From the IMG/VR virus record IMGVR_UViG_3300008450_000088, positions 1 through 43,662 of that record: a stretch of 43,662 nucleotides of DNA, one strand, 5' to 3'. The translations under genes and the position numbers were made by a program. Below the pieces are notes generated by a model that was given only the letters and a program-made list of their open reading frames with translations, did not search any database and was not told the DNA's origin. Positions 4,233 to 43,662 of the stretch are shown here, one piece after another (the stretch's first letter is position 1; each line of letters starts with the position of its first letter). Origin of the DNA: a virus.

Positions 4233-4652
4233 ATGAAGGTAGAACTTTTTAAAAAATTGATAAAAGAAGCAGTAAGAGAAGTAGTTCGAGAAGAACTATC
4301 TGGACTTATTTCCGAAAATTCTACACAAAGTAAACCTGCTGCACCAACTGTACAGCATGTTACCAAGTACGAAGAATTTAAACCTACTGTTGCAAAACCT
4401 ACAAAAACAGGAGATCCTATAATGGATTTACTTAACGAAACAAGAGCTACTATGACACAGGAGACTTATAGAGAATTAGTAAGTGCAACTTCTGATATGG
4501 TTCAAGCACCGGGATTAGGAATGAACCCTGTAGAGAATTTTCAAACAGGACCTGCTCCGGGATTAGATTTAAGTACTTTAGATTTTGTTAAAAATGCAGG
4601 AGCTATTTTTAAGGCATCGGTAGAAAAAGATAAAGCAAGATTCGGAGGATAA
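4233..4652 (+). CDS. Small protein with capsid-targeting-like leader, 139 aa
   Basis: The protein starts with an amphipathic helix, MKVELFKKLIKEAVREVVRE, leading to LISE (E28). This is the same leader type seen on many accessory and head-region proteins here and ends in an (L/I)-x-E site of the kind cut by gp21 proteases. The rest is low in complexity and rich in Ala, Pro, Thr and Met, without recognisable domains. It sits between two baseplate genes and overlaps the gp25 start by one base. It may be an internal head protein encoded away from the head genes, or the helix may serve assembly of the baseplate. Confidence 0.6.
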   Translation: MKVELFKKLIKEAVREVVREELSGLISENSTQSKPAAPTVQHVTKYEEFKPTVAKPTKTGDPIMDLLNETRATMTQETYRELVSATSDMVQAPGLGMNPVENFQTGPAPGLDLSTLDFVKNAGAIFKASVEKDKARFGG

Positions 4653-15475: not shown

Positions 15476-17380
15476 ATGGCAATAATATTAAGAGCAGATA
15501 CCGGATCGGCATTATCACACAATCAGGTAGATACAAATTTTACCTCATTCTTCTACTCATCATCGATAAGTGGAAATACACTGACTTTATTTAAAACAGG
15601 ATCAGGAGCATTAAGCATAGCTGTAGAAAGTTCTTCAATATCACTACCAGGTGGAACTGTTTGGACAGCATCAGCTGCTGATATAAGCAGAAACAGTGAT
15701 GTAACAATAACTGGATCATTTAAACAAGGATCTGCAGGATTAGTATCTACAGGATTGAATTCACATGCTGAGGGATTAAGTACTCAAGCAATAGGATGGC
15801 ATTCTCATGCTGAAGGAAGACAAACACAAGCAAGAAACTCTGGATCTCATGCTGAAGGATACCAGACTATAGCGACAGGCTCTTATTCACATGCCGAGGG
15901 TTTAAGTTCACAAGCTAGAGGTCAATATTCTCATGCAGAAGGAAATACCACAATAGCGACAGGAGCTCAATCACATGCAGAAGGAATTAATACTCAAGCA
16001 ATAGGAGATAGTTCACATGCTGAGGGAAGTAACACAGTAGCAACAGGAAATAACTCACATGCCGAAGGAGGTAGTACAACAGCAGTAGGTATAGGCTCAC
16101 ATGCCGAAGGAGGTAGTACAACAGCATCAGGAACATATTCACATGCCGAAGGAAATAATACAACAGCAACAGGAGAGTATTCACACGCTGAAGGAGAGGG
16201 TACAGACTCAATAGGAGATTATTCACATGCAGAAGGAGAAAAAACTCAAGCATTAGGAACTTTTTCACACGCAGAAGGAAACTCCACACAAGCAATAGGA
16301 TCCTACTCACATGCAGAAGGACAGCAAACCCAAGCAATAGGAGATTATTCACATGCAGAAGGAGACAGTACTATAGCATCAGGATCTTATTCACATGCAG
16401 AAGGACAAATTACTATTGCTCAAGGATCTTATTCTCATGCTGAAGGATATGATACTCAAGCAATAGGAGATTACTCACATGCCGAAGGAGATACTACCAC
16501 AGCATCAGGACTAGGTTCACATGCTGAAGGAAACAGTACTCAAGCAATAGGAGATTTATCACATGCTGAAGGAGATGGTGCTCAAGCAATAGGAGATTAT
16601 TCACATGCCGAAGGATTTAATTCCGTAGCACGAGGAACTTTCTCACATGCAGAAGGATTTGAAGCAGTATCATCAGGATCTTACTCACATGCAGAAGGGT
16701 ATGGAACTATATCTAGAGGAGAAGCATCTCATACAGAAGGATACTACACAGTAGCATCAGGATCATACCAACATGTACAAGGTCAGTATAATATATCTTC
16801 CTCAGCACAATCAGCTTTTATTATAGGAAATGGTACTTCAAATTCTAATAGAAGTAACTTAGTATTTGCATCAGGTTCTACTTTCCAAGTAACAGGATCT
16901 TTAAATGTAACAGGAAGTTTTAGACTTAACGGTAATACTCAATTTAATCACGGTATGTTCTTCCATACAGCCAGTATCTCTATAGCAAATGGAACATCAG
17001 GTTCTGCACTATTTTCAACAACAACAATTTCAAATGGAGTAACAATAACAAGCGGATCTAGAATTACAATAGCAAACCCAGGATATTATAATATTCAATT
17101 CTCAGCACAACTTGCTCAAGGAGCAGGAACAGCAAATCACAATATATGGTTTAAAAAGAACGGAAGCAATGTAGCAAACAGCAACTCAAGAAAAACATTA
17201 TTAAATAATACAAATCAAATAATGACAGTTGATATTATAGATCAGATAAGCAATCCAGGAGATTACTATGAAATAGCACACCAAAGTGATGCAGCTAACT
17301 CGACACTAGAATACATAGCAGCATCAGGAAATATACCAGAAACACCGGCAATAATAGTAACAGTACAACAGGTAAGTTAA
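15476..17380 (+). CDS. Receptor-binding tail fibre/adhesin with SHAEG repeats
   Basis: A 634-aa protein in three parts. Residues 1-95 form a mixed N-terminal head that probably binds the tail. Residues 96-445 are 25 consecutive 14-residue repeats of the form SHAEGxxTxAxGxx, like the YadA-type head of trimeric adhesins, which folds as a left-handed beta-roll trimer. After a short neck (FIIGNGTSN), about residues 495-634 resemble a C1q/TNF-like jelly roll (PGYYNIQFSAQLAQG, IWFKKNGSNVANSN), a common receptor-binding tip. The His, Ala, Glu and Gly positions are nearly invariant, while the variable positions are Thr/Ser/Gln/Asn-rich. The protein probably determines host attachment. Gain or loss of repeats could change fibre length. 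Confidence 0.82.
   Translation: MAIILRADTGSALSHNQVDTNFTSFFYSSSISGNTLTLFKTGSGALSIAVESSSISLPGGTVWTASAADISRNSDVTITGSFKQGSAGLVSTGLNSHAEGLSTQAIGWHSHAEGRQTQARNSGSHAEGYQTIATGSYSHAEGLSSQARGQYSHAEGNTTIATGAQSHAEGINTQAIGDSSHAEGSNTVATGNNSHAEGGSTTAVGIGSHAEGGSTTASGTYSHAEGNNTTATGEYSHAEGEGTDSIGDYSHAEGEKTQALGTFSHAEGNSTQAIGSYSHAEGQQTQAIGDYSHAEGDSTIASGSYSHAEGQITIAQGSYSHAEGYDTQAIGDYSHAEGDTTTASGLGSHAEGNSTQAIGDLSHAEGDGAQAIGDYSHAEGFNSVARGTFSHAEGFEAVSSGSYSHAEGYGTISRGEASHTEGYYTVASGSYQHVQGQYNISSSAQSAFIIGNGTSNSNRSNLVFASGSTFQVTGSLNVTGSFRLNGNTQFNHGMFFHTASISIANGTSGSALFSTTTISNGVTITSGSRITIANPGYYNIQFSAQLAQGAGTANHNIWFKKNGSNVANSNSRKTLLNNTNQIMTVDIIDQISNPGDYYEIAHQSDAANSTLEYIAASGNIPETPAIIVTVQQVS
15761..16810 (+). repeat. 25 tandem 42-bp coding repeats (14-aa SHAEG units)
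   Basis: Exactly 25 in-frame 42-base units: 23 begin with SHAEG, unit 24 with SHTEG and unit 25 is degenerate (QHVQG). Several units share long near-identical stretches such as CAAGCAATAGGAGATTATTC, which suggests recent copying or recombination between units. The array ends precisely where the FIIGNG neck begins. Confidence 0.92.
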
Positions 17381-28782: not shown

Positions 28783-29211
28783 ATGAAAAAAAGTCAGATA
28801 AAAAAAATAATTAAAGAAGTACTGGATGCTTCCACACAAGCTCCTAATAAAGTACCAGGAGGACTTGCACAATATGCTACTATTGGAGATCTAGCTCAAA
28901 TGCATAAACTTCCAATTAACCAAATCATAAAACAAATAATTAAAGGAGTTAAGGTAGAATCTGAGCATACAACAGATTTAGATATTGCTATGGAAATAGC
29001 TTTTGATCATGTTTATGAAAATCCAACTTATTATGATGATTTAGGAAAACTTGAAGAAGGAGAACACGATCCTGTACAGCCAGGTATTTTAAAAAAAAGG
29101 TTAGGAAAGCTTTCATGTACGAAAGTAAGACAGGAGAGAAGTAAGCTAGAGGATAAAGGAACTCATTATGCAAAAGCATTACAGAGATACTTAAATTACC
29201 ACTGTCAGTAA
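28783..29211 (+). CDS. DUF5661-like protein with leader helix, 142 aa
   Basis: The N-terminus MKKSQIKKIIKEVLDASTQA is a textbook member of the leader family, with I-K-E at E12. Residues about 42-85 contain KVESEHTTDLDIAMEIAFDH and YENPTYYDDL, the pattern I associate with DUF5661. The last 40 residues (LKKRLGKLSCTKVRQERSKL, then HYAKALQRYLNYHC) form a third basic module with two cysteines that I recall from many marine T4-like phages. The three-module layout suggests domain shuffling. The molecular function is unknown. It starts four bases after its neighbour's stop. Confidence 0.7.
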   Translation: MKKSQIKKIIKEVLDASTQAPNKVPGGLAQYATIGDLAQMHKLPINQIIKQIIKGVKVESEHTTDLDIAMEIAFDHVYENPTYYDDLGKLEEGEHDPVQPGILKKRLGKLSCTKVRQERSKLEDKGTHYAKALQRYLNYHCQ

Positions 29212-32509: not shown

Positions 32510-33283
32510 ATGGCAGATAATTTTAATTTAAGATCATTCTTAACAGAGAATAAACTTACAAAAAACGCAAAGCTTCTTAAAGAGGAAGTTTCTTTAAACG
32601 GAAAACCAGTAAACACTCGTTCAATCGAAATCGACGGAATAGATACAAACGACTACCCAGATTTTGTAGATGCATATATTACTTATGCTGAGTATGAGGA
32701 TGGTACTCCATTAACAGATGAAGAATTAATGAGCTTGGAAGATGAGAATTATGGATTAACAGGGGAATTAATTTTCGATAGACAACTTTATTTACAAGAG
32801 AGAAAAGAAAGAGATATTGAAGAAGAAGTAATGGAATCAAAACAATCTCCAAGAGAAAAATACCTAACTCGTTTAGTAGAAAATGCTTTAGGAATAGCCG
32901 AAGAAGAGCATCCTTTTGGAACAAATAAATTAACAGGAGAACCTCTTCCAGACCCAGCATCACAAGCTGTAACAGAAGAAGAAATGGTTAAAGAAAAGCC
33001 ACTTCCAAAATACGAGAACATTGAAAAATTAATGCAGGAAATCGAACATGGAACAAACGAAGCAGCATATAAACATAAGATGATGAAAATGAAAGAAGTT
33101 GCTGAGATGTTAGAAGCTAGAGTAAGTTCTTTAGAAGAAGGAGAAGGAGCAGAGTTTGTTGATGCTAAAAAAGTAAAACAAATGAAGAAAGATGTCATGA
33201 CTCTTAGAAAACAAGCTGAGAAACTTGAAAAAGAGTATGATAAAAAATTCGGAGAAAAGAAATCTAAAAAAGAACAGGAATAA
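32510..33283 (+). CDS. Head-core-like protein with NFNLxxFLxENKLT leader, 257 aa
   Basis: It begins NFNLRSFLTENKLTKNAK after MAD, then LLKEE. The protein at 40195 opens with the closely similar SFNLKKFLVENKLTSNSK and ILSE, although the two proteins are otherwise unrelated. Sites L-T-E (E13) and L-K-E (E25) fit gp21 cleavage. The middle is acidic (LTDEELMSLEDENYGLTGEL), and the C-terminal 100 residues are a Lys/Glu-rich coiled coil. The composition resembles T4 head-core proteins. It lies where gp16 (small terminase) would precede gp17, but nothing here resembles gp16. A terminator follows. Confidence 0.65.
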   Translation: MADNFNLRSFLTENKLTKNAKLLKEEVSLNGKPVNTRSIEIDGIDTNDYPDFVDAYITYAEYEDGTPLTDEELMSLEDENYGLTGELIFDRQLYLQERKERDIEEEVMESKQSPREKYLTRLVENALGIAEEEHPFGTNKLTGEPLPDPASQAVTEEEMVKEKPLPKYENIEKLMQEIEHGTNEAAYKHKMMKMKEVAEMLEARVSSLEEGEGAEFVDAKKVKQMKKDVMTLRKQAEKLEKEYDKKFGEKKSKKEQE

Positions 33284-34968: not shown

Positions 34969-36831
34969 ATGGCAGATACAAATCTATTTTCTTCCTTAAA
35001 AAGACTATTTGCAACAGACGTTGTAATCAGGAATGTAGGAGGAGATGAATTAAAGATTGCTGATGTTAATCAAATACAGACTACAGGGAAGTACCAAACC
35101 AATGCCCTTCTGGATAGATTCTCACGTCTTTATATTTACAATAATAAAAATATATTTAATCCAAATCTTAACTACCAGACGTTAAGAATTCAATTATACT
35201 CTGATTACGAAGCAATGGATACAGATCCGCTTATTGCTTCAACCCTAGACATATTAGCAGATGAATCTACTCTAAAGAATGATATGGGGGAGGTTCTTTC
35301 TATTAAATCCTCAGATGAGAATATTCAAAGAGTATTATACAATCTATATTACGATGTATTAAATATTGAATTTAATCTTTGGTCATGGATTAGAAATATG
35401 TGTAAATACGGAGACTTCTTCTTAAAATTAGAAATCTCAGAACAATTTGGAGTATATAATGTAATTCCTTACACAGTTTATAATATAGTTAGATATGAAG
35501 GAACAGATCCTGAAAATCCAACTAAAGTAATGTTTACAATTGATCCAGACGGATTAGCATCTTCAGCAGATCCAAATTATATTCCAAAATCAAATAAATC
35601 AGTTATCACTCTTGATAATTACGAAGTAGCTCACTTCAGACTAATATCAGATATAAATTACCTACCATACGGAAGATCTTATATTGAACCAGCTAGAAAA
35701 ATCTACAAACAATTAACTTTAATGGAGGATGCGATGTTGATTCATAGAATCATGAGAGCTCCTGAGAAGAGAATGTTTTATGTAAATGTAGGATCTATTC
35801 CACCGAATGAGGTAGAGCAGTTCATGCAAAAAACAATTAACAGTATTAAGAAAACTCCTTATGTAGATCAACAAACAGGGGAATACAACTTGAGATTCAA
35901 TATGATGAATATGATGGAGGATTTCTATCTTCCAGTAAGAGGAGGCGATACTTCAACTCGTATTGAAACAACTAAAGGATTAGACTACGATGGTACAAAT
36001 GATATTGAGTACTTAAGAGATAAAATGTTTGCTGCATTAAAAGTACCAAAAGCTTATTTCGGATTCGAAAAAGATTTAACAGGAAAAGCCACTTTAGCAG
36101 CAGAAGATATTCGTTTTGCTAGAACAGTTGAAAGACTTCAAAAAATTGTAGAAAGCGAATTAACAAAAATTGGATTGGTGCATTTATATGCTCAAGGATT
36201 TAAAGGAGAATCTTTAACCAATTTTGAGATTAAATTAACAAATCCTTCTATTATATTTGAACAAGAAAAAGTAGCTCTATTAAAAGAAAAAATAGATCTA
36301 GCTCGTCAAATGAAAGAAACTAAATTATTCTCATCAGATTATATCTATGATAATATCTTTAATTTATCTGAAGATCAGTATAATGAAATGAGAGATTTAG
36401 TAAGAGAGGATGCAAAAAGAGACTTTAGAATATCTCAGATAGAGAATGAAGGAAATGATCCAGTAGCAACAGGTCAATCTTATGGAACACCTCACGATCT
36501 TGCTTCTATGTATGGAAGAGAAAGAGGAGAGGTTCCTGCAGGGTATGATGAAAGAGATCCTAGACCGGAAGGAAGACCTAGAGAGAAAGTCTCAATAATA
36601 GGAACACAGGCAGATCCAGTTGGTGGAAGAGATAGATTAGGAGTAAAAGGTATGAAAGGCGGATATCCAAGCGATAATGAAAATGTTAAGGAAGGAAGAT
36701 CTACAGCAGAATCTGTCTTATTTAAAAATAAAGATATGTTTGCTTCTAAAAAGAAACTTATTTTCGAAAAACAACAAGAACAGGAATCAGATTTACTAAA
36801 CGAAGATAATATAAAAGATTTAGATAAATAA
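34969..36831 (+). CDS. gp20: Portal protein gp20
   Basis: A 620-aa portal of the T4 type (T4 gp20 has 524 aa). Typical blocks are YSDYEAMDTDPLIASTLDIL near residue 85, LWSWIRNMCKYGDFFLKLEI near 140, LPYGRSYIEPARKIYKQLTL with MRAPEKRMFYVNVG near 225-275, and VPKAYFGFEKDLTGKATLAA near 360. The C-terminal 120 residues are a polar, Gly/Arg/Asp-rich tail longer than in T4. It forms the dodecameric ring at the unique vertex and starts prohead assembly. The tail contains (L/I)-x-E-like sites, so C-terminal trimming by gp21 is possible but unproven. Confidence 0.93.
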   Translation: MADTNLFSSLKRLFATDVVIRNVGGDELKIADVNQIQTTGKYQTNALLDRFSRLYIYNNKNIFNPNLNYQTLRIQLYSDYEAMDTDPLIASTLDILADESTLKNDMGEVLSIKSSDENIQRVLYNLYYDVLNIEFNLWSWIRNMCKYGDFFLKLEISEQFGVYNVIPYTVYNIVRYEGTDPENPTKVMFTIDPDGLASSADPNYIPKSNKSVITLDNYEVAHFRLISDINYLPYGRSYIEPARKIYKQLTLMEDAMLIHRIMRAPEKRMFYVNVGSIPPNEVEQFMQKTINSIKKTPYVDQQTGEYNLRFNMMNMMEDFYLPVRGGDTSTRIETTKGLDYDGTNDIEYLRDKMFAALKVPKAYFGFEKDLTGKATLAAEDIRFARTVERLQKIVESELTKIGLVHLYAQGFKGESLTNFEIKLTNPSIIFEQEKVALLKEKIDLARQMKETKLFSSDYIYDNIFNLSEDQYNEMRDLVREDAKRDFRISQIENEGNDPVATGQSYGTPHDLASMYGRERGEVPAGYDERDPRPEGRPREKVSIIGTQADPVGGRDRLGVKGMKGGYPSDNENVKEGRSTAESVLFKNKDMFASKKKLIFEKQQEQESDLLNEDNIKDLDK

Positions 36832-36860: not shown

Positions 36861-37715
36861 GTGAAAATAAAACACTCAAAATACAAAAATACAGGACTAA
36901 TATTTGAACTACTAGTAAAACAAGTAGCAGCAGATACATTATCGAGAAAAGATTCACCAGCAGTAAAAATTATTAAAAAATTCTATACAGGGAATACATC
37001 TCTTGTTAAAGAATTTAAACTGTATGATTTTGTAATAAAAAACAAAGGGGTAGGATCTAGAAAAGCAGAAACGATTCTATCAACTATTATAGAGATTTCT
37101 AGAAAGCTGGATACAGTTTCTTTAAAGAAACAGAAATACGAATTAATAAAAGAGTTAAAAGAGCAGTACAATTTAGAAGAATTCTTCTCTATAAAAGTAG
37201 ATAATTATAAACCTCTTGCAGCTCTTTACTGTTTACTAGAAGCTCAAAATACAGCAGACTTACTTGACCCGAATATATTTGTAGACAATAAAACAACTCT
37301 ACTTGAGCATTTAACTCAAAATTCACAATCACAGGGAAAAGTAAAAGATGCCTTGATTGAAGAGTATTCTAAGTATGATAAGGATTTAAGGCTATTAACT
37401 TATAAAATTCTTTTAGAAAAATTCAACAACCAATACGCAGAACTACTTCCAGAACAAAAAAACATTCTGAAAGAATTTATAACATCAGTTAACTCTACAA
37501 CTAGGTTAAGAAATATAGTAAATGAGGAGATGGAGAAATTAAATTCTCAAATTACTAAATTTAAAGGAAAAGTTACAGACGATATTGTTAAAATTAAATT
37601 AGAAGAAATTCAAAAAAGTATTACACCTATTAAAAATACACAAAAAGTAGATGATAGCCATTTAGTAAACCTAATGCAATACTACGAATTGGTAAATGAA
37701 TTAAAAAACCTATGA
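36861..37715 (+). CDS. Helical protein between portal and protease, 284 aa
   Basis: It starts with GTG at 36861 (product MKIKHSKYKNTGLIFELLVK). The protein is almost entirely helical and Lys/Glu/Leu-rich, with no cysteine motif and no catalytic site. The N-terminal block K-Y-x-N-T-G-x-I-F-E-L-L looks conserved. In T4 the head-core genes 67 and 68 lie between gp20 and gp21, so a prohead-core or portal-linked role is the best positional guess; it is larger than gp67 (80 aa) and gp68 (141 aa). It overlaps the next gene by ATGA. Confidence 0.65.
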   Translation: MKIKHSKYKNTGLIFELLVKQVAADTLSRKDSPAVKIIKKFYTGNTSLVKEFKLYDFVIKNKGVGSRKAETILSTIIEISRKLDTVSLKKQKYELIKELKEQYNLEEFFSIKVDNYKPLAALYCLLEAQNTADLLDPNIFVDNKTTLLEHLTQNSQSQGKVKDALIEEYSKYDKDLRLLTYKILLEKFNNQYAELLPEQKNILKEFITSVNSTTRLRNIVNEEMEKLNSQITKFKGKVTDDIVKIKLEEIQKSITPIKNTQKVDDSHLVNLMQYYELVNELKNL

Positions 37716-37954
37716 AAAGATCAGAGATTGTAAAGCTTGTACAAGAAGTCCTATCAGAAATGTCTACAACAGGAACAGGAGCTTCTTTCTCACCAGGAGC
37801 AGGAGCACAATATGCTACTCCTTATGCTTTTTCAAAAGGAACAGGAAAAAATAAAGCTACTAAATATCTTGAAAAATTAGGATATAAAACAGTTAAAAGA
37901 CCAAAAAGACCTTCACATACAAAAATGTTTGATTACTTAGACGAAAATAAATAA
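37712..37954 (+). CDS. Small head protein with leader and capsid-like maturation site
   Basis: An 80-aa protein. Residues 1-16 are the leader MKRSEIVKLVQEVLSE. What follows, (M)STTGTGASFSPGAGAQYA, matches the stretch after the predicted cleavage site of the major capsid protein (LVSE, then A and STTGTGASFSAGQGEQWA). Cleavage after E16 would give a 64-residue basic mature protein (YLEKLGYKTVKRPKRPSHTK). The ATGA overlap with the upstream stop supports the start at 37712 rather than M17. I infer that gp21 trims both proteins and that this one sits inside or on the head. It is the strongest internal evidence for the leader model. Confidence 0.75.
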   Translation: MKRSEIVKLVQEVLSEMSTTGTGASFSPGAGAQYATPYAFSKGTGKNKATKYLEKLGYKTVKRPKRPSHTKMFDYLDENK

Positions 37955-37955
37955 T

Positions 37956-39614
37956 ATGAGAACTTTACAAGAAAAATATAACGCAATTCAAGAGGGAAAA
38001 TTCTCCAAAGATCAATTCCTAGTAGAAGCTAGAATGCAACAACCACAATTAGTAACTCGTTATAACGGATATAATGATGCTGTTAAAATTCTTAAGAATA
38101 GAGGAATGATTGTAGAAGTATCTGCTGAGGAGAGTTTTGCAGATTATTCTAACGATGCTCTTACTGATATGATTTCTAACCTATCAAGATATGAAGGTAA
38201 TGAAAATGAAATAGCAAGAATTAAATCAGAATTAGAAAGACGTAGGGGAACTGTTAAAGAAGCTGGAGGTCATGCATCTATAAATAACTTATCTAAATTT
38301 CACGGAATTACAGGAGATAAATTACCTGAGGATAAGGAAGGATTAGAAAAAGCTTTAAAAGCTGCTGAAAAAGGTGGTAATAAACGAACAGCTCAGGAAA
38401 TAAGAATAGCGTTAAAAAAATTAAACGAAGCTCGACTTACTAAAAAGAATTTAGCAGATTATAGATACAAGCCAACCAACGATATGGACAACTATCCATA
38501 TGAACAAATACTAAGAGGTTTAAGAGTTGAATTGGAAACAATGGGTATTCAAGGAACTCCAACTGCTGAAGAATATAAAAAAGCATTGACTAAAGTTCTT
38601 AAGAATTTAGAAAAAGACGAAATCTTCTATACAAATCAATTAGCAGGAAATAATAAGAAAGTTGATCTTCATGATAAAATGGTAGACGCTACAGCAAAAA
38701 ATACTGTAGACACTTTCAATGGAATGAAGAAAATAAAAGACTTAAAAGAAAATGTTTCCTCATTAAAGAATCTTCCAGACGGAAAATATTTTGCAATAGA
38801 CGGAGATTGGGAAGAAGAGTATAAAGGACATAACGGACTATTTTTTACACTAAGAGGACATAATCTTATTGATTCAGACGGAGAGAACTTCCAAACATCT
38901 CCTGAAGAGTTTCTATCTCAATTCACACCAGATGAAATATTAAAAGTAGAAGATATAGCAGAAACTACTTTGAAAGAAGGTATTAAAAACCTTATCAAAA
39001 AGGTATTAACGGAGAATGAAGAGGATATTTATGAAATGCAAGGACCAAAATCAGATCAAGAATATAAAAGTGAATTAGCAGATTATTTAGAAGATAATCA
39101 AATCTACGGGTACGTAGATATGATACACGATATCATGACAGGGCCAGATGAAGAAGAGAATAGTGCTTCACTAGCAGATTTTTTAGACGATCATCAAATA
39201 TACGGATATAGTAGAGCAATTGAAAGAATCTATGCAGACTATCCATACGATCAACACTGGATGAATCAACCAGATGAAGACGAAGCAGATGATATTTCGC
39301 ATCCAAGAGGCTACGAAGAAGCTAGTGATGAAGAAAGTTTTGAAGACTTGTACGAAGCAGAAGATAAGGAAGCAGATAAAGACATGGTTCGTAAATTAAT
39401 GGCAATGTACGAAACTGAACCTTCTAAATTTGAAAGATTACATAAACAAACAGAAACACAAGCAAACACTACTCAGGATATTGCATTTAGACGTATACTA
39501 AGTCTAATGAATAGAGCAAAAGCAGGAGCTTTACAAAGTTTAGCCAATCAAGATAGATTTGAAGCTGATAGAGAAGGGATGTATGAATCAGTATCATTAA
39601 AAGACTTATTATAA
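37956..39614 (+). CDS. Mosaic head-core-like protein, 552 aa
   Basis: It begins MRTLQEKYNAIQEGKFSKDQ, then FLVEARMQQPQLVTRYNGY, an N-terminal module I recall from head-region proteins of marine T4-like phages. Next come acidic and Lys-rich helices, a beta unit near 285-320 (LPDGKYFAIDGDWEEEYKGH), a leader-type helix GIKNLIKKVLTENEED in mid-protein (about 342-357), and two copies of L-A-D-(Y/F)-L-(E/D)-D-(N/H)-Q-I-Y-G-Y (about 374 and 404). Very acidic overall. (L/V)-x-E sites mark module borders. It probably forms part of the prohead core and is processed by gp21, whose gene starts at its stop codon. Confidence 0.62.
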   Translation: MRTLQEKYNAIQEGKFSKDQFLVEARMQQPQLVTRYNGYNDAVKILKNRGMIVEVSAEESFADYSNDALTDMISNLSRYEGNENEIARIKSELERRRGTVKEAGGHASINNLSKFHGITGDKLPEDKEGLEKALKAAEKGGNKRTAQEIRIALKKLNEARLTKKNLADYRYKPTNDMDNYPYEQILRGLRVELETMGIQGTPTAEEYKKALTKVLKNLEKDEIFYTNQLAGNNKKVDLHDKMVDATAKNTVDTFNGMKKIKDLKENVSSLKNLPDGKYFAIDGDWEEEYKGHNGLFFTLRGHNLIDSDGENFQTSPEEFLSQFTPDEILKVEDIAETTLKEGIKNLIKKVLTENEEDIYEMQGPKSDQEYKSELADYLEDNQIYGYVDMIHDIMTGPDEEENSASLADFLDDHQIYGYSRAIERIYADYPYDQHWMNQPDEDEADDISHPRGYEEASDEESFEDLYEAEDKEADKDMVRKLMAMYETEPSKFERLHKQTETQANTTQDIAFRRILSLMNRAKAGALQSLANQDRFEADREGMYESVSLKDLL

Positions 39615-40195
39615 TGAACAATCCACTATTAATAAACGTAACTCCTTTTAAAGGACTTCTTACCGAATCAAAAGCTAAACCGGGTGTTTTTGAAGTAACA
39701 GGTCTTATGCAGAGAGCAGGAGCAAAGAACCAAAACGGAAGAATCTATAAAAGAGAAATCCTTGAAGAAGAGGTAAAAAATTATATAGAAAATTTCGTTA
39801 AAGTAGGAAATGCATACGGAGAATTAGATCATCCAGAATCAGCAGTAGTATCTTTAAAAAACGCTTCACACGTTGTAAAAGAACTGTGGTGGGATGGAGA
39901 TGATTTAATGGGTAAAGTAGAATTACTAAATACACCTTCAGGGAATATCGTTAAAGAAATCTTAAAAGGAGGACATACAATTGGAATCTCTTCAAGAGGA
40001 ACAGGATCAGTAACACAGACAAATGAAGGAACTCTAATGGTTCAACCAGACTTTGAATTAGTATGCTGGGATTTCGTTTCAAATCCTTCTACACATGGAG
40101 CTTTTATGAATCCAATTTCACTAAATGAAGGAAAACAAGTAGTAGGAAAATATGATAAATTAGATACAATCATTAATAACATATTAAGAGCATAA
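39614..40195 (+). CDS. gp21: Prohead core protease gp21
   Basis: A 193-aa serine protease of the T4 gp21 type (T4 gp21 has 212 aa). Key blocks are GLMQRAGAKNQNGRIYKREI; YGELDHPESAVV with the catalytic His (H73); and GGHTIGISSRGTGSV with the catalytic Ser (S126 or S127). VCWDFVSNPSTHGAFM follows, as in homologues. In T4 it sits in the prohead core, cuts scaffold, core and capsid proteins after Glu in (L/I)-x-E, and then digests itself. The N-terminus here contains LLTES, itself such a site. The gene is coupled to both neighbours by TAATG. Confidence 0.92.
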   Translation: MNNPLLINVTPFKGLLTESKAKPGVFEVTGLMQRAGAKNQNGRIYKREILEEEVKNYIENFVKVGNAYGELDHPESAVVSLKNASHVVKELWWDGDDLMGKVELLNTPSGNIVKEILKGGHTIGISSRGTGSVTQTNEGTLMVQPDFELVCWDFVSNPSTHGAFMNPISLNEGKQVVGKYDKLDTIINNILRA

Positions 40196-40680
40196 TGGAA
40201 AGCTTTAATTTAAAAAAATTCTTAGTAGAAAATAAATTAACTAGTAATTCAAAGATACTAAGTGAAGTTACTTATAATAACTTTACTCCACCTGTTTTAG
40301 ATGATATAAATCAAGTAAATGAAGACTTCTTTAAAAAACTAATGCCAAGAACAGCTCAAACAACAGATGAGGCAATGGAACGTATTTGGGATTTTGAAGG
40401 AGGTACTATGTTCATTCATTTCCAGTATTTTGATGTTAAACCTCATGGAAATTCTCCTGATAGACCTACTTATAGAATACATAATTCTCAATATTGGCTA
40501 AATGATTACCAACTGATGATGCAAGGTAAAAAAGGACAAAACGTTAATGTAACTTTATTATCAATAAAAGATATCACAGATCCAGAAAATATAGAAGATT
40601 TAGGAGCAATTTTTGTTGATACAAAAGTATATTTAGATGAACAACCACGAGTATTTGAAATATTAAATAGACAATCATAA
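40195..40680 (+). CDS. Head-region protein with NFNLxxFLxENKLT-type leader, 161 aa
   Basis: It opens with SFNLKKFLVENKLTSNSK after ME, then ILSEVTYNN, so the leader could be cut after L-S-E at E24. The same leader, diverged in DNA, heads the unrelated protein at 32510. The mature part is alpha/beta with FEGGTMFIHFQYFDVKPHGN and a terminal strand AIFVDTKVYLDEQPR; the fold is not recognised. Its place directly after gp21 and before gp22 suggests an internal or core protein of the head. Coupled to gp21 by TAATG. Confidence 0.68.
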   Translation: MESFNLKKFLVENKLTSNSKILSEVTYNNFTPPVLDDINQVNEDFFKKLMPRTAQTTDEAMERIWDFEGGTMFIHFQYFDVKPHGNSPDRPTYRIHNSQYWLNDYQLMMQGKKGQNVNVTLLSIKDITDPENIEDLGAIFVDTKVYLDEQPRVFEILNRQS

Positions 40681-41161: not shown

Positions 41162-42331
41162 ATGTCAAATCAAGATTTATTTAAGCAAGCTATTGCTGAA
41201 GCTAAAACTATTCGTGAAGCTGCAATTGCCAATGCTAAAGAAGCTTTAGAAGAATCATTGACACCTCATTTAAAAGACATGCTTGCTGCAAAACTTCAAG
41301 AAATGGAAGAAGCAGAAGATGAAATGATGAATGAAGAAGATATGATCAACAATCCAGAAGGTTCAACTGCACACGGAAACGTAGCAGAAGCTGAAGAGGA
41401 GGAAGAAGCTGAAGAAGCAGAAGGCGAAGAAGAAGAAGCTGAAGAAGAAGACATAGACGTAAAAGATATGTCTGTGGAAGAATTAAAAGATCTTATCCGT
41501 GATATCGTTGCCCAAGAAGTTGGAGACGAAGAAGGAGAAGAAGAGTTACCAGGAGAGGACGAAGGCAAAATCGGAGCTGATGATATGCAAGGAGTAGATG
41601 GTGAAGAGGAAATCGACATCAACGAAATCTTAGCAGAATTAGCAGAGATGGACAAAGAAGACACTATGGAAGAAGGTTTAGATAGCTGGATTGATAAAAT
41701 CTCTGCTAAGTTACAAAAAGCTGGAAAAGAAAGTAATATTGTACAAGCTATTGAAAAAATGGTAAGTAAATATGAAACTGAGAAGCATTCTGGAGCTCAT
41801 AAACTTGAAGAAGAGTTAGAAGAAGGTTTAGATAGCTGGATTGATAAAATCTCTGCTAAGTTAAAAAAAGCTGGAGAAGAAAGTGCTCTTGGAAAAGCTG
41901 TTAACAAAGCGATAGAGTCATTACCAGAAACTGAAAAACATTCAGGAGCTCACAAAATAAGTGAAGAATCTAAAGAATTAGAAGAAGCTTTAGCAACAAT
42001 TGGACAGTTAAGAACTCAACTTCAAGAAGTTAATTTATTAAATGCTAAATTACTTTATGTAAATAAAGTTTTCAAAGCAAATAATTTAACAGAAGGTCAA
42101 AAAGTAAATGTTGTAGCTGCATTTGATAAAGCAGAAACAGTTAAAGAGGTTAAATTAGTTTACGAAACAGTTTCTAAAAATGTAGTATCAAAACCAGTTG
42201 CAATTAAAGAGCATAAATCATTTGCTTCTAAAGCAGCAGGTACTGCAACAGTAGCAGGTAAAAAAGAGGTAATCTCTGAGGTAAATGAACAAGTAGCTAG
42301 ATGGCAAAAGTTAGCAGGAATTATCAAATAA
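41162..42331 (+). CDS. gp22: Prohead scaffold protein gp22-like
   Basis: A 389-aa, strongly acidic, Glu-rich helical protein directly before the capsid gene, as in T4 (gp22 has 269 aa). The N-terminus MSNQDLFKQAIAEAKTIREA carries I-A-E and I-R-E sites. A Glu/Asp-rich block spans about 50-165. A duplicated 50-residue unit (EGLDSWIDKISAKL ... ETEKHSGAHK) follows. The C-terminal 120 residues, ending NEQVARWQKLAGIIK, resemble the conserved gp22 end that binds the capsid shell. It would be degraded by gp21 to make room for DNA. It lies 30 bases before gp23. Confidence 0.85.
   Translation: MSNQDLFKQAIAEAKTIREAAIANAKEALEESLTPHLKDMLAAKLQEMEEAEDEMMNEEDMINNPEGSTAHGNVAEAEEEEEAEEAEGEEEEAEEEDIDVKDMSVEELKDLIRDIVAQEVGDEEGEEELPGEDEGKIGADDMQGVDGEEEIDINEILAELAEMDKEDTMEEGLDSWIDKISAKLQKAGKESNIVQAIEKMVSKYETEKHSGAHKLEEELEEGLDSWIDKISAKLKKAGEESALGKAVNKAIESLPETEKHSGAHKISEESKELEEALATIGQLRTQLQEVNLLNAKLLYVNKVFKANNLTEGQKVNVVAAFDKAETVKEVKLVYETVSKNVVSKPVAIKEHKSFASKAAGTATVAGKKEVISEVNEQVARWQKLAGIIK
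41671..41970 (+). repeat. Tandem 150-bp duplication inside gp22
   Basis: Unit one starts at 41671 and unit two at 41821. The first 43 bases are identical, the first 64 differ at two positions, and divergence rises towards the end (CTGAGAAGCATTCTGGAGCT versus CTGAAAAACATTCAGGAGCT). Each encodes a 50-residue E-G-L-D-S-W-I-D-K-I-S-A-K-L unit. Confidence 0.9.
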
Positions 42332-42361: not shown

Positions 42362-43662
42362 ATGCAATTAAATCAATTATTAGAGAGCTCAAACAACTAT
42401 AAGACTTTACAAGCAGATGCTGCTCGTTTAGCAGGTAAATGGAGCAAATCAGGTTTATTAGAAGGTATTTCTAATGAAATCGAGAAAAACAACATGGCTA
42501 TGATTCTTGAGAATCAAGCAAAACAATTAGTATCTGAAGCTTCAACTACAGGAACAGGAGCATCATTCTCAGCTGGACAAGGTGAGCAATGGGCAGGAGT
42601 AGCTTTACCATTAGTACGTAAAGTATTTGCTCAAATCGCTGCTAAAGATTTCGTTTCTGTACAGCCAATGAATTTACCATCAGGTCTTGTATTCTATTTA
42701 GATTTTAAATACGGTACAAGCACTGTAGGATTTAATGCAGGAGATAACATGTACGGTAATGTATCTACTGCAGGAGACAAAATCGGAATTGATGAAGAAG
42801 TATCAGGAGGTTTATATGGTGCTGGTAGATTTGGTTACTCAATCAACTCTGCATCATCAGCAGTATTATCAGGACAAGCAACAGGTTCTGCAACTTCTGC
42901 TTCTATCGCTTATCAAGATGGAGAATTACCTACAAACTATAGAACAGTTACAGTAGCTACTTCTTCTTTATCAGGATTAGATATAGAAGGTATTAGAGCA
43001 TTTAGATTATACTCAGCATCGATAGATATTACTTCTAACCCAGAATTAACAGTACAAACAGGAGGGAATGTAGTATTCGTAGTTAAATTAAATTCTGCAG
43101 GTGGAACTTATGTACCAACAATCGCATCAGGTACTTTTGATGCAACTGTAAAATACCAAAAACAACCAGCTGATAACTCAAGAGGTGATTTCGAAGATAC
43201 TACAGGTACTTTAAAAATACCAGAAATCAACGTAACATTAGCTTCTGAGGCAATTGTTGCTAAAACAAGAAAATTAAAAGCTCAATGGACTCCAGAGTTC
43301 GCTCAAGACTTAAACGCTTATCATTCAATTGATGCTGAAGCAGAATTAACATCATTACTATCAGAGTACATCTCTATGGAGATTGACTTAGAATTATTAG
43401 ATATGTTAATCCAAGATGCAGCTACAACTGAAAGATGGTCAGCTAAGAATAATAGAATTTGGGACGGTAATACATGGGTAAGTAACACATCTGATTTCTA
43501 TAATACTCAAGGACAATGGTTCCAAACTTTAGGAACTAAAGTTCAAAAAGTATCTAACAAAATTCACCAAAAAACTTTAAGAGGTGGAGCTAACTTCTTA
43601 GTATGTTCTCCTTCTGTAGCTACAATCTTAGAATCAATTCCAGGATATGCAGCAGATACAAA
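42362..43662 (+). CDS. gp23: Major capsid protein gp23 (3' end beyond window)
   Basis: Starts at 42362 (MQLNQLLESSNNYKTLQADA) and runs off the right edge after about 433 codons; T4 gp23 has 521 aa. The diagnostic block is KTRKLKAQWTPEFAQDLNAY, then AEAELTSLLSEYISMEIDLE (around residues 305-345). The predicted gp21 cut lies after E59 in QLVSE, followed by ASTTGTGASFSAGQGEQWAG; T4 gp23 is cut after E65, so the position fits. The mature start is shared with the 80-aa protein at 37712. The leader ATTAAACAACA lacks a Shine-Dalgarno sequence and no own promoter motif is visible, so it is probably transcribed with gp22. Confidence 0.95.
   Translation, partial: MQLNQLLESSNNYKTLQADAARLAGKWSKSGLLEGISNEIEKNNMAMILENQAKQLVSEASTTGTGASFSAGQGEQWAGVALPLVRKVFAQIAAKDFVSVQPMNLPSGLVFYLDFKYGTSTVGFNAGDNMYGNVSTAGDKIGIDEEVSGGLYGAGRFGYSINSASSAVLSGQATGSATSASIAYQDGELPTNYRTVTVATSSLSGLDIEGIRAFRLYSASIDITSNPELTVQTGGNVVFVVKLNSAGGTYVPTIASGTFDATVKYQKQPADNSRGDFEDTTGTLKIPEINVTLASEAIVAKTRKLKAQWTPEFAQDLNAYHSIDAEAELTSLLSEYISMEIDLELLDMLIQDAATTERWSAKNNRIWDGNTWVSNTSDFYNTQGQWFQTLGTKVQKVSNKIHQKTLRGGANFLVCSPSVATILESIPGYAADT

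Follow-up and report, generated by a model that had tools for sequence, protein, structure and literature searches.

A small head-operon protein of a T4-like phage carries a segment that resembles, and varies together with, the mature N-terminus of the major capsid protein gp23

Why does an 80-aa protein encoded between the portal and protease genes of a T4-like phage carry, directly after its leader, a stretch resembling the site at which the major capsid protein of the same phage is expected to be cut? The question is raised by the window analysed here, the complete 43,662-base IMG/VR record of a T4-like phage; the operon features given with coordinates below lie on the + strand. The order of the head operon is terminase, portal, a 284-aa protein, the small gene, a 552-aa protein, gp21, a 161-aa protein, a 101-aa protein, a gp22-like protein and gp23. 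The portal gp20 (34969..36831; Pfam Portal_T4, E=1e-72) anchors the operon upstream. It is followed by a conserved 284-aa protein (36861..37715), homologues of which occupy the same slot in Flavobacterium phage immuto and Microcystis phage Mel-JY01. The small gene (37712-37954, from the ORF translation) has its ATG overlapping the stop codon of the 284-aa gene (ATGA). The 552-aa protein (37956..39614) separates the small gene from the gp21-type prohead protease (39614..40195; Pfam Peptidase_S77, E=6e-35; phrog_207), which presumably cuts both the small protein and gp23. The acidic gp22-like scaffold protein (41162..42331) was recognised by position and composition, with no confident family match in Pfam. 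The gp23 gene extends from 42362 to the window end (Pfam Gp23, E=3.9e-52) and includes the propeptide (residues 1-59, 42362..42538), which ends with E59 at P1, a residue invariant in 26 homologues, the mature N-terminal segment ASTTGTGASFSAGQGEQWA (42539..42595) and the body (42596..43660), the gene running past the end of the window.

The segment shared by the small protein and gp23

Residues 17-35 of the small protein and residues 60-78 of gp23 are identical at 14 of 19 positions, and each stretch is immediately preceded by a Glu in a gp21-type context. The gp23 junction reads ...NQAKQLVSE|ASTTGTGASFSAGQGEQWAGVALP, where E is residue 59; in the alignment, QEVLSE|MSTTGTGASFSPGAGAQYA of the small protein stands against KQLVSE|ASTTGTGASFSAGQGEQWA of gp23. 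The local alignment of QEVLSEMSTTGTGASFSPGAGAQYA and KQLVSEASTTGTGASFSAGQGEQWA has a score of 82, which was reached by none of 2000 whole-sequence shuffles (maximum 59) and none of 5000 local-composition shuffles (maximum 65), and chance or composition is thereby ruled out as the source of the match. The second-best ORF of the window scores 36 against the gp23 junction. A search of the window with this junction found gp23 and the small ORF alone (E=4e-7), and no third ORF carrying the segment was found in the first 80 IMG/VR loci, immuto and the window. The segment of the small protein (37760..37816) is regarded as a copy of the gp23 mature N-terminus on the basis of the alignment, the shuffles and the co-variation described below. 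The same codon is used at 8 of the 14 identical residues, so the segment is not a recent DNA copy.

The initial annotation had pointed to this match across the cut site in two otherwise different proteins of one head operon, and the observation holds: the ORF translates exactly as quoted, with an identity far above chance. Searches of the small-protein family against Pfam, PHROG and PDB gave no match, except for weak PHROG matches to the C-terminal extension of one relative (L001), and the capsid domain PF07068 was not found in the small protein by the same searches.

In T4-like phages, the cut gp23 tail, known as the N-fist, locks the capsomers together. A HMMER comparison of the window gp23 with mature T4 gp23 placed the segment within the first ~26 mature residues, in the region of the T4 N-fist, and the small protein thus imitates the gp23 N-fist. 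The T4 N-fist comprises gp23 residues 66-91, contacts four subunits and passes from the inside to the outside when the head expands; in five gp23 subunits, those whose fist faces the portal, it is disordered (PMC9958956, PMC7136217).

The segment is followed by a basic C-terminal part, TPYAFSKGTGKNKATKYLEKLGYKTVKRPKRPSHTKMFDYLDENK and the stop codon (37817..37954), which is conserved in the family alignment (A1). The mature 64-mer has a pI of 9.9 and a charge of about +7. The AF2 model of the small protein consists of a leader helix, predicted for residues 3-19, and a disordered remainder (pLDDT 62), which includes most of the C-terminal part; a Foldseek search with this model found no fold match. 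The AF2 model of gp23 is poor (pLDDT 44). In L001, L004, L006, L009, L022 and L031, a second C-terminal unit of the TPxAF...LG type is located beyond the point where the window protein ends with YLDE.

Relatives of the small protein are encoded by 318 IMG/VR stretches, and tblastn found the gene, with the same neighbours, in four Flavobacterium phage immuto records. The slot between the portal and gp21 is kept in immuto and in more than 100 contigs. Several scans yielded 137 loci with both the small gene and gp23, and seven further loci carry variants, so that the small gene is present in 144/144 of the loci having gp23 and enough upstream sequence; these are loci rather than genomes, with some contigs represented twice, and the small gene itself served to retrieve part of the set, the loci retrieved via gp23 being the unbiased part. 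In Mel-JY01 a distant relative is encoded directly upstream of gp21, and another lies close to the head genes of the uncultured phage LR756508; both retain the leader, the Glu and the motif TGNVxGYxTPxAF.

The leader and the presumed cut site

The leader MKRSEIVKLVQEVLSE (37712..37759), with E16 at its end as the P1 residue, is probably a capsid-targeting propeptide: it is short and terminates at an (L/I)xE site, LSE at residues 14-16. It is conserved as protein among homologues in the family alignment, and its codons show a dN/dS of about 0.23 (74 distinct leaders), which means purifying selection. Glu directly precedes the segment in 79/79 full small-protein leaders, where the parser had allowed Glu or Asp, and in every gp23, and E16 is invariant in the 31-row family alignment. 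At P3, 68 of the 79 small-protein leaders have Leu; in gp23 this position is Val or Ile. A start of translation at M17, considered in the initial annotation, is ruled out by the variability of residue 17, which is L, I, T, Q or V in many homologues and Met in part of the family, and by the selection acting on the leader; the ATGA overlap also speaks for the upstream start.

It is known that gp21 removes short N-terminal propeptides and cuts after Glu (PMC9026906, PMC5694885), and the leader and its Glu fit these habits. In the small protein, the cut would fall after E16. The resemblance to gp23 taken alone would be no proof of cleavage, for which a leader under selection that ends in an invariant Glu is the better evidence. 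In the immuto small protein, MSTTGAVGGYLTK would be the start of the putative cleaved form, and MKKSQIVKAVQEVLEE is the stretch that would be absent from mature heads if cleavage occurs.

Many other ORFs of the window, at 4233, 19183, 27387, 27881, 28783, 29272, 36861, 40195 and 40691, also begin with a short helical leader in which (L/I)xE comes early, which suggests that the proteins targeted to the core and processed by gp21 may be more numerous. In the DUF5661 protein (28783-29211), the leader MKKSQIKKIIKEVLD is followed by ASTQAPNKVPGGLAQYAT, which bears a faint likeness to the small-protein junction.

The small protein shares individual traits with several classes of head proteins. Like gp23 and gp24 (PF07068), it has the arrangement of propeptide, Glu and mature tail, with first mature residues rich in S/T/N/G, but it lacks the HK97 fold and comprises 64 residues when mature. 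T4 gp67 and gp68 are small acidic prohead core proteins encoded between gp20 and gp21 and degraded by gp21; the small gene occupies the same genomic slot, but its product is basic, and in this it also differs from Syn19_118, an acidic protein in the gp67/gp68 slot of a cyanophage. The cement proteins Soc and Hoc bind to the outside of the expanded capsid. One Gp23-family (PF07068) ORF each was found in L081, L170, L003 and L101, and these phages seem to have no separate vertex protein; KIT03 has two such ORFs (gp23 and gp24). Since a single Gp23-family ORF, and no gp24, was found in immuto, Mel-JY01 and two other long relatives, a role related to gp24 only is unlikely.

Co-variation of the two junctions and its possible causes

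The gp23 junction is hypervariable between the invariant E59 and E76/W78 (L003 numbering). Distances between small-protein junctions correlate with distances between gp23 junctions, with a raw Mantel r of 0.66 and, when gp21, gp23-body and small-core distances are controlled for, a partial r of 0.634 (p=0.0002; n=78 loci with distinct junction pairs and gp21), in tests of a kind that can be liberal. The best value among 87 control windows of 18 residues from gp21, the gp23 body and the small core was 0.19, and among 258 windows of gp22, the 552-aa and 284-aa proteins and gp20 it was 0.34 (345 control windows overall). Permutation of partners among close relatives gave p=0.005 and 0.0003 for two clade sizes and 0.15 in the tightest clades.

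Many of the junctions include an insert, which reads FxPGxGxxY in the small protein and FxAGxGxxW in gp23; 49 pairs have it in both proteins, 27 lack it altogether and 4 have it in one protein alone. On the gp21+gp23-body tree, the insert changes 12 times per protein and the joint state changes 14 times. The association was reached by 0/16,548 simulations of independent evolution on this tree, and a Pagel-type test favoured the dependent model (LR 34.4, p=6e-7), the insert pattern having been defined after viewing the sequences and the trees being quick ones. A tree of gp21 only, the gene that sits between the two, gives a similar change count; with gp21-only or gp23-body-only trees the well-supported pairs were too few for significance, the average never being opposite. 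Recombination within the head operon could inflate the concordance.

Among the insert-bearing pairs alone the correlation is still present (r 0.30, p=0.0003); their P2' residues (small protein/gp23) are N/N in 24 pairs, S/S in 23 and G/S in 1, although P2' changes just three times on the tree. The likeness is vivid in L163, where ANTTQVGGSGFNAGGGETYA stands against ANGTQSGGSGFTAGAGETWA. In the insert-free subset no significant co-variation was found (r 0.18, p=0.12); in insert-free relatives such as immuto and L081, the likeness to their own gp23 amounts to little more than S/T-T-G, and genome-wide searches with the Mel-JY01-type gp23 junction found gp23 alone in Mel-JY01, immuto and LR756508. 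Taken together, the partial r of 0.63 and the tree-based tests bear out the expectation of the initial annotation that the segment follows the gp23 junction of each genome; L225, L226, L017, L032 and L277 are exceptions. The fraction of identical residues sharing codons is 0.40 within a genome and 0.386 +/- 0.019 between genomes; codon identity is thus not raised within genomes, which makes protein-level selection the likelier cause of the match.

The joint change of both tails suggests that they may hold on to one and the same component of the shell. The reading to which we give somewhat better than even chances is that the small protein is targeted to the head and processed by gp21, and that the tail so exposed would use the partner or groove of the gp23 N-fist. 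A small structural head protein would be made as a precursor, and the 16-residue leader would bring it into the prohead core, where gp21 would cut after E16 and create an N-terminus mimicking the one made on gp23 at E59. The mimic segment would then engage whatever the gp23 tail binds, the simplest candidate being the groove of an adjacent gp23 in which the T4 N-fist docks, and once docked it would hold the short basic tail at the shell. It may act at positions where a gp23 tail lacks a proper neighbour, such as the portal surroundings, or else anywhere in the lattice. All these steps are inferred, from core targeting and cleavage to docking, the place in the shell and what the basic tail does.

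Co-variation establishes a functional link and leaves the partner unspecified, and the two tails may bind, before or after cleavage, a common partner outside the gp23 lattice, such as a protein of the core or the portal vertex or an accessory protein on the outside. The next-best co-varying window, a variable stretch of the portal (DPRPEGRP, r 0.34), fits this explanation, but the T4 N-fist contacts gp23 itself (PMC9958956) and the remaining windows of the operon co-vary weakly; a partner of this kind appears unlikely, though it is the strongest competitor of docking on gp23.

It is improbable that the segment is an extended recognition site of gp21, read on the prime side and co-varying because each genome has one gp21. 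Such a site would agree with the fact that both segments begin right after the presumed cut and with the N/N or S/S identity at P2' in 47/48 insert-bearing pairs. The match, however, runs at least 18 residues beyond the cut, no third ORF in the 80 IMG/VR loci, immuto and the window carries the segment though other head leaders end in LxE, and the internal protein of KIT03 has the same leader type and does without it. The gp21 windows, moreover, show a partial r of <=0.19 with either junction. The recognition role is disfavoured by these leader proteins without the segment and by the absence of co-variation in gp21.

We rate equally low the possibility that the small protein is an ordinary T4-like internal protein that is targeted, cut, packed with DNA and ejected, its likeness to gp23 being incidental or an aid in loading. 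Those T4 internal proteins that bear a capsid-targeting sequence (IPI-III, Alt) are likewise small and basic, with a short N-terminal propeptide and an (L/I)xE-type end, and other basic leader-like proteins are said to occur in related phages (PMC9026906). They have, however, no known gp23-like segment, the leader of the window protein is not the T4 sequence, and T4 internal proteins are poorly conserved (PMC9026906), whereas the small gene is found in all 144 loci; the co-varying segment would also be left unexplained. Copying of the segment between the genes by duplication or gene conversion, with retention without function, is highly improbable: the genes lie a few kb apart and the matching segments are of low complexity and rich in S/T/G, but the codon choice does not support recent conversion, the insert was gained or lost jointly and repeatedly, and the design recurs in Straboviridae and cyanophages.

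Similar designs in other T4-like phages

When the T4-type phage KIT03 (L309) was searched with its own N-fist, the matches were gp23 and the product of gene 61.1 (KIT03_35; AP018932.1 17704-17868). This protein reads MKTYKEFIKE|DMVAGDSGGNPENISTGTTSGAVVNKGPEQIPKKKKEESKEKEE and scores 80 against gp23 (0/3000 shuffles), the junction pair being MKTYKEFIKE|DMVAGDSGGNPENISTGTTSGAVVNKGPEQIPKKKK and, in gp23, FLTE|AEIGGDHGYNATNIAAGQTSGAVTQIGP. Its leader coincides with the internal-head-protein leader MKTYQEFITE at 8/10 positions and, judging by this match, is a genuine capsid-targeting leader. Both gp23 and a 61.1-type protein were found in 13/13 Straboviridae genomes tested (L309 and L311-L322), which is a biased frequency because the genomes were picked from tblastn matches to 61.1; the matched-pair test on the 13 genomes gave p=0.09. 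In several Straboviridae the N-fist copy makes up the C-terminal portion of a longer protein; the majority of the tails are Lys-rich. The Straboviridae 61.1 proteins are often annotated as hypothetical or as 'major capsid protein', and in the open-access literature, to which the search was confined, gp61.1 is a conserved hypothetical protein and no more.

The 61.1-type proteins (KIT03_35, JSE Gp61.1) and the window protein have in common a part ending in Glu, a copy of their own gp23 N-fist right after this Glu and, usually in the former, a Lys-rich tail. In contrast to the small gene, gene 61.1 adjoins the primase gene outside the head operon, its fist copy is of the T4 type and its tail is unrelated; mature KIT03 61.1 is net acidic, with a pI of 5.0 compared with 9.9 for the window protein. 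The window protein shows neither homology to 61.1 outside the fist copy nor the gene 61 neighbourhood, and its tblastn matches include no Straboviridae record.

In cyanophage Syn19, a 185-aa protein annotated as 'major head protein' (Syn19_180; L310 705-1262) starts with TMMTAGTGGFSGSAPATGPNAGFDPIIKFRKKLKKTK, compared with TLQTTGYTGASTATGPVAGFDPVLISL in gp23 (score 75, 0/3000 shuffles), and the 174-aa Syn9_190 (L352 483-1007) bears the same annotation. In both, the N-terminus copies the mature gp23 N-terminus, the only part taken from gp23, and a basic stretch comes after it, as in the window protein; they differ from the latter in their longer unrelated C-terminal part and in their location away from the gp20-gp23 operon, and Syn19_180 has no targeting leader. 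The first part of Syn19_180 has matches in 318 phage records of cyanophages or marine phages, some of which are gp23 genes. In RM378, no gp23 N-fist copy was found. Since the tails of the three groups look unrelated, it seems that the design recurs and not the protein.

We tentatively propose, as a possibility with rather less than an even chance, that the window family, the Straboviridae 61.1 proteins and the Syn19_180-type proteins may form a so far unrecognised class of N-fist mimics. Such proteins would be separate polypeptides that display the mature gp23 tail of their own phage, coevolve with this tail, fill the N-fist grooves of the shell that gp23 neighbours cannot fill, for example at the portal, and anchor tails that are mostly basic. 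If this is true, head maturation would gain a new component, a second N-fist-bearing protein that tracks the changes of gp23 across genomes and recurs in three phage groups, and T4 gene 61.1 would acquire a testable role.

Two further features of the window were observed. The proteins encoded at 32510-33283 and 40195-40680 are otherwise different and have the common N-terminus FNL(R/K)xFLxENKLTxNxKxLxE, and the 634-aa protein encoded at 15476-17380 consists mostly of SHAEG repeats and is probably of the fibre type.
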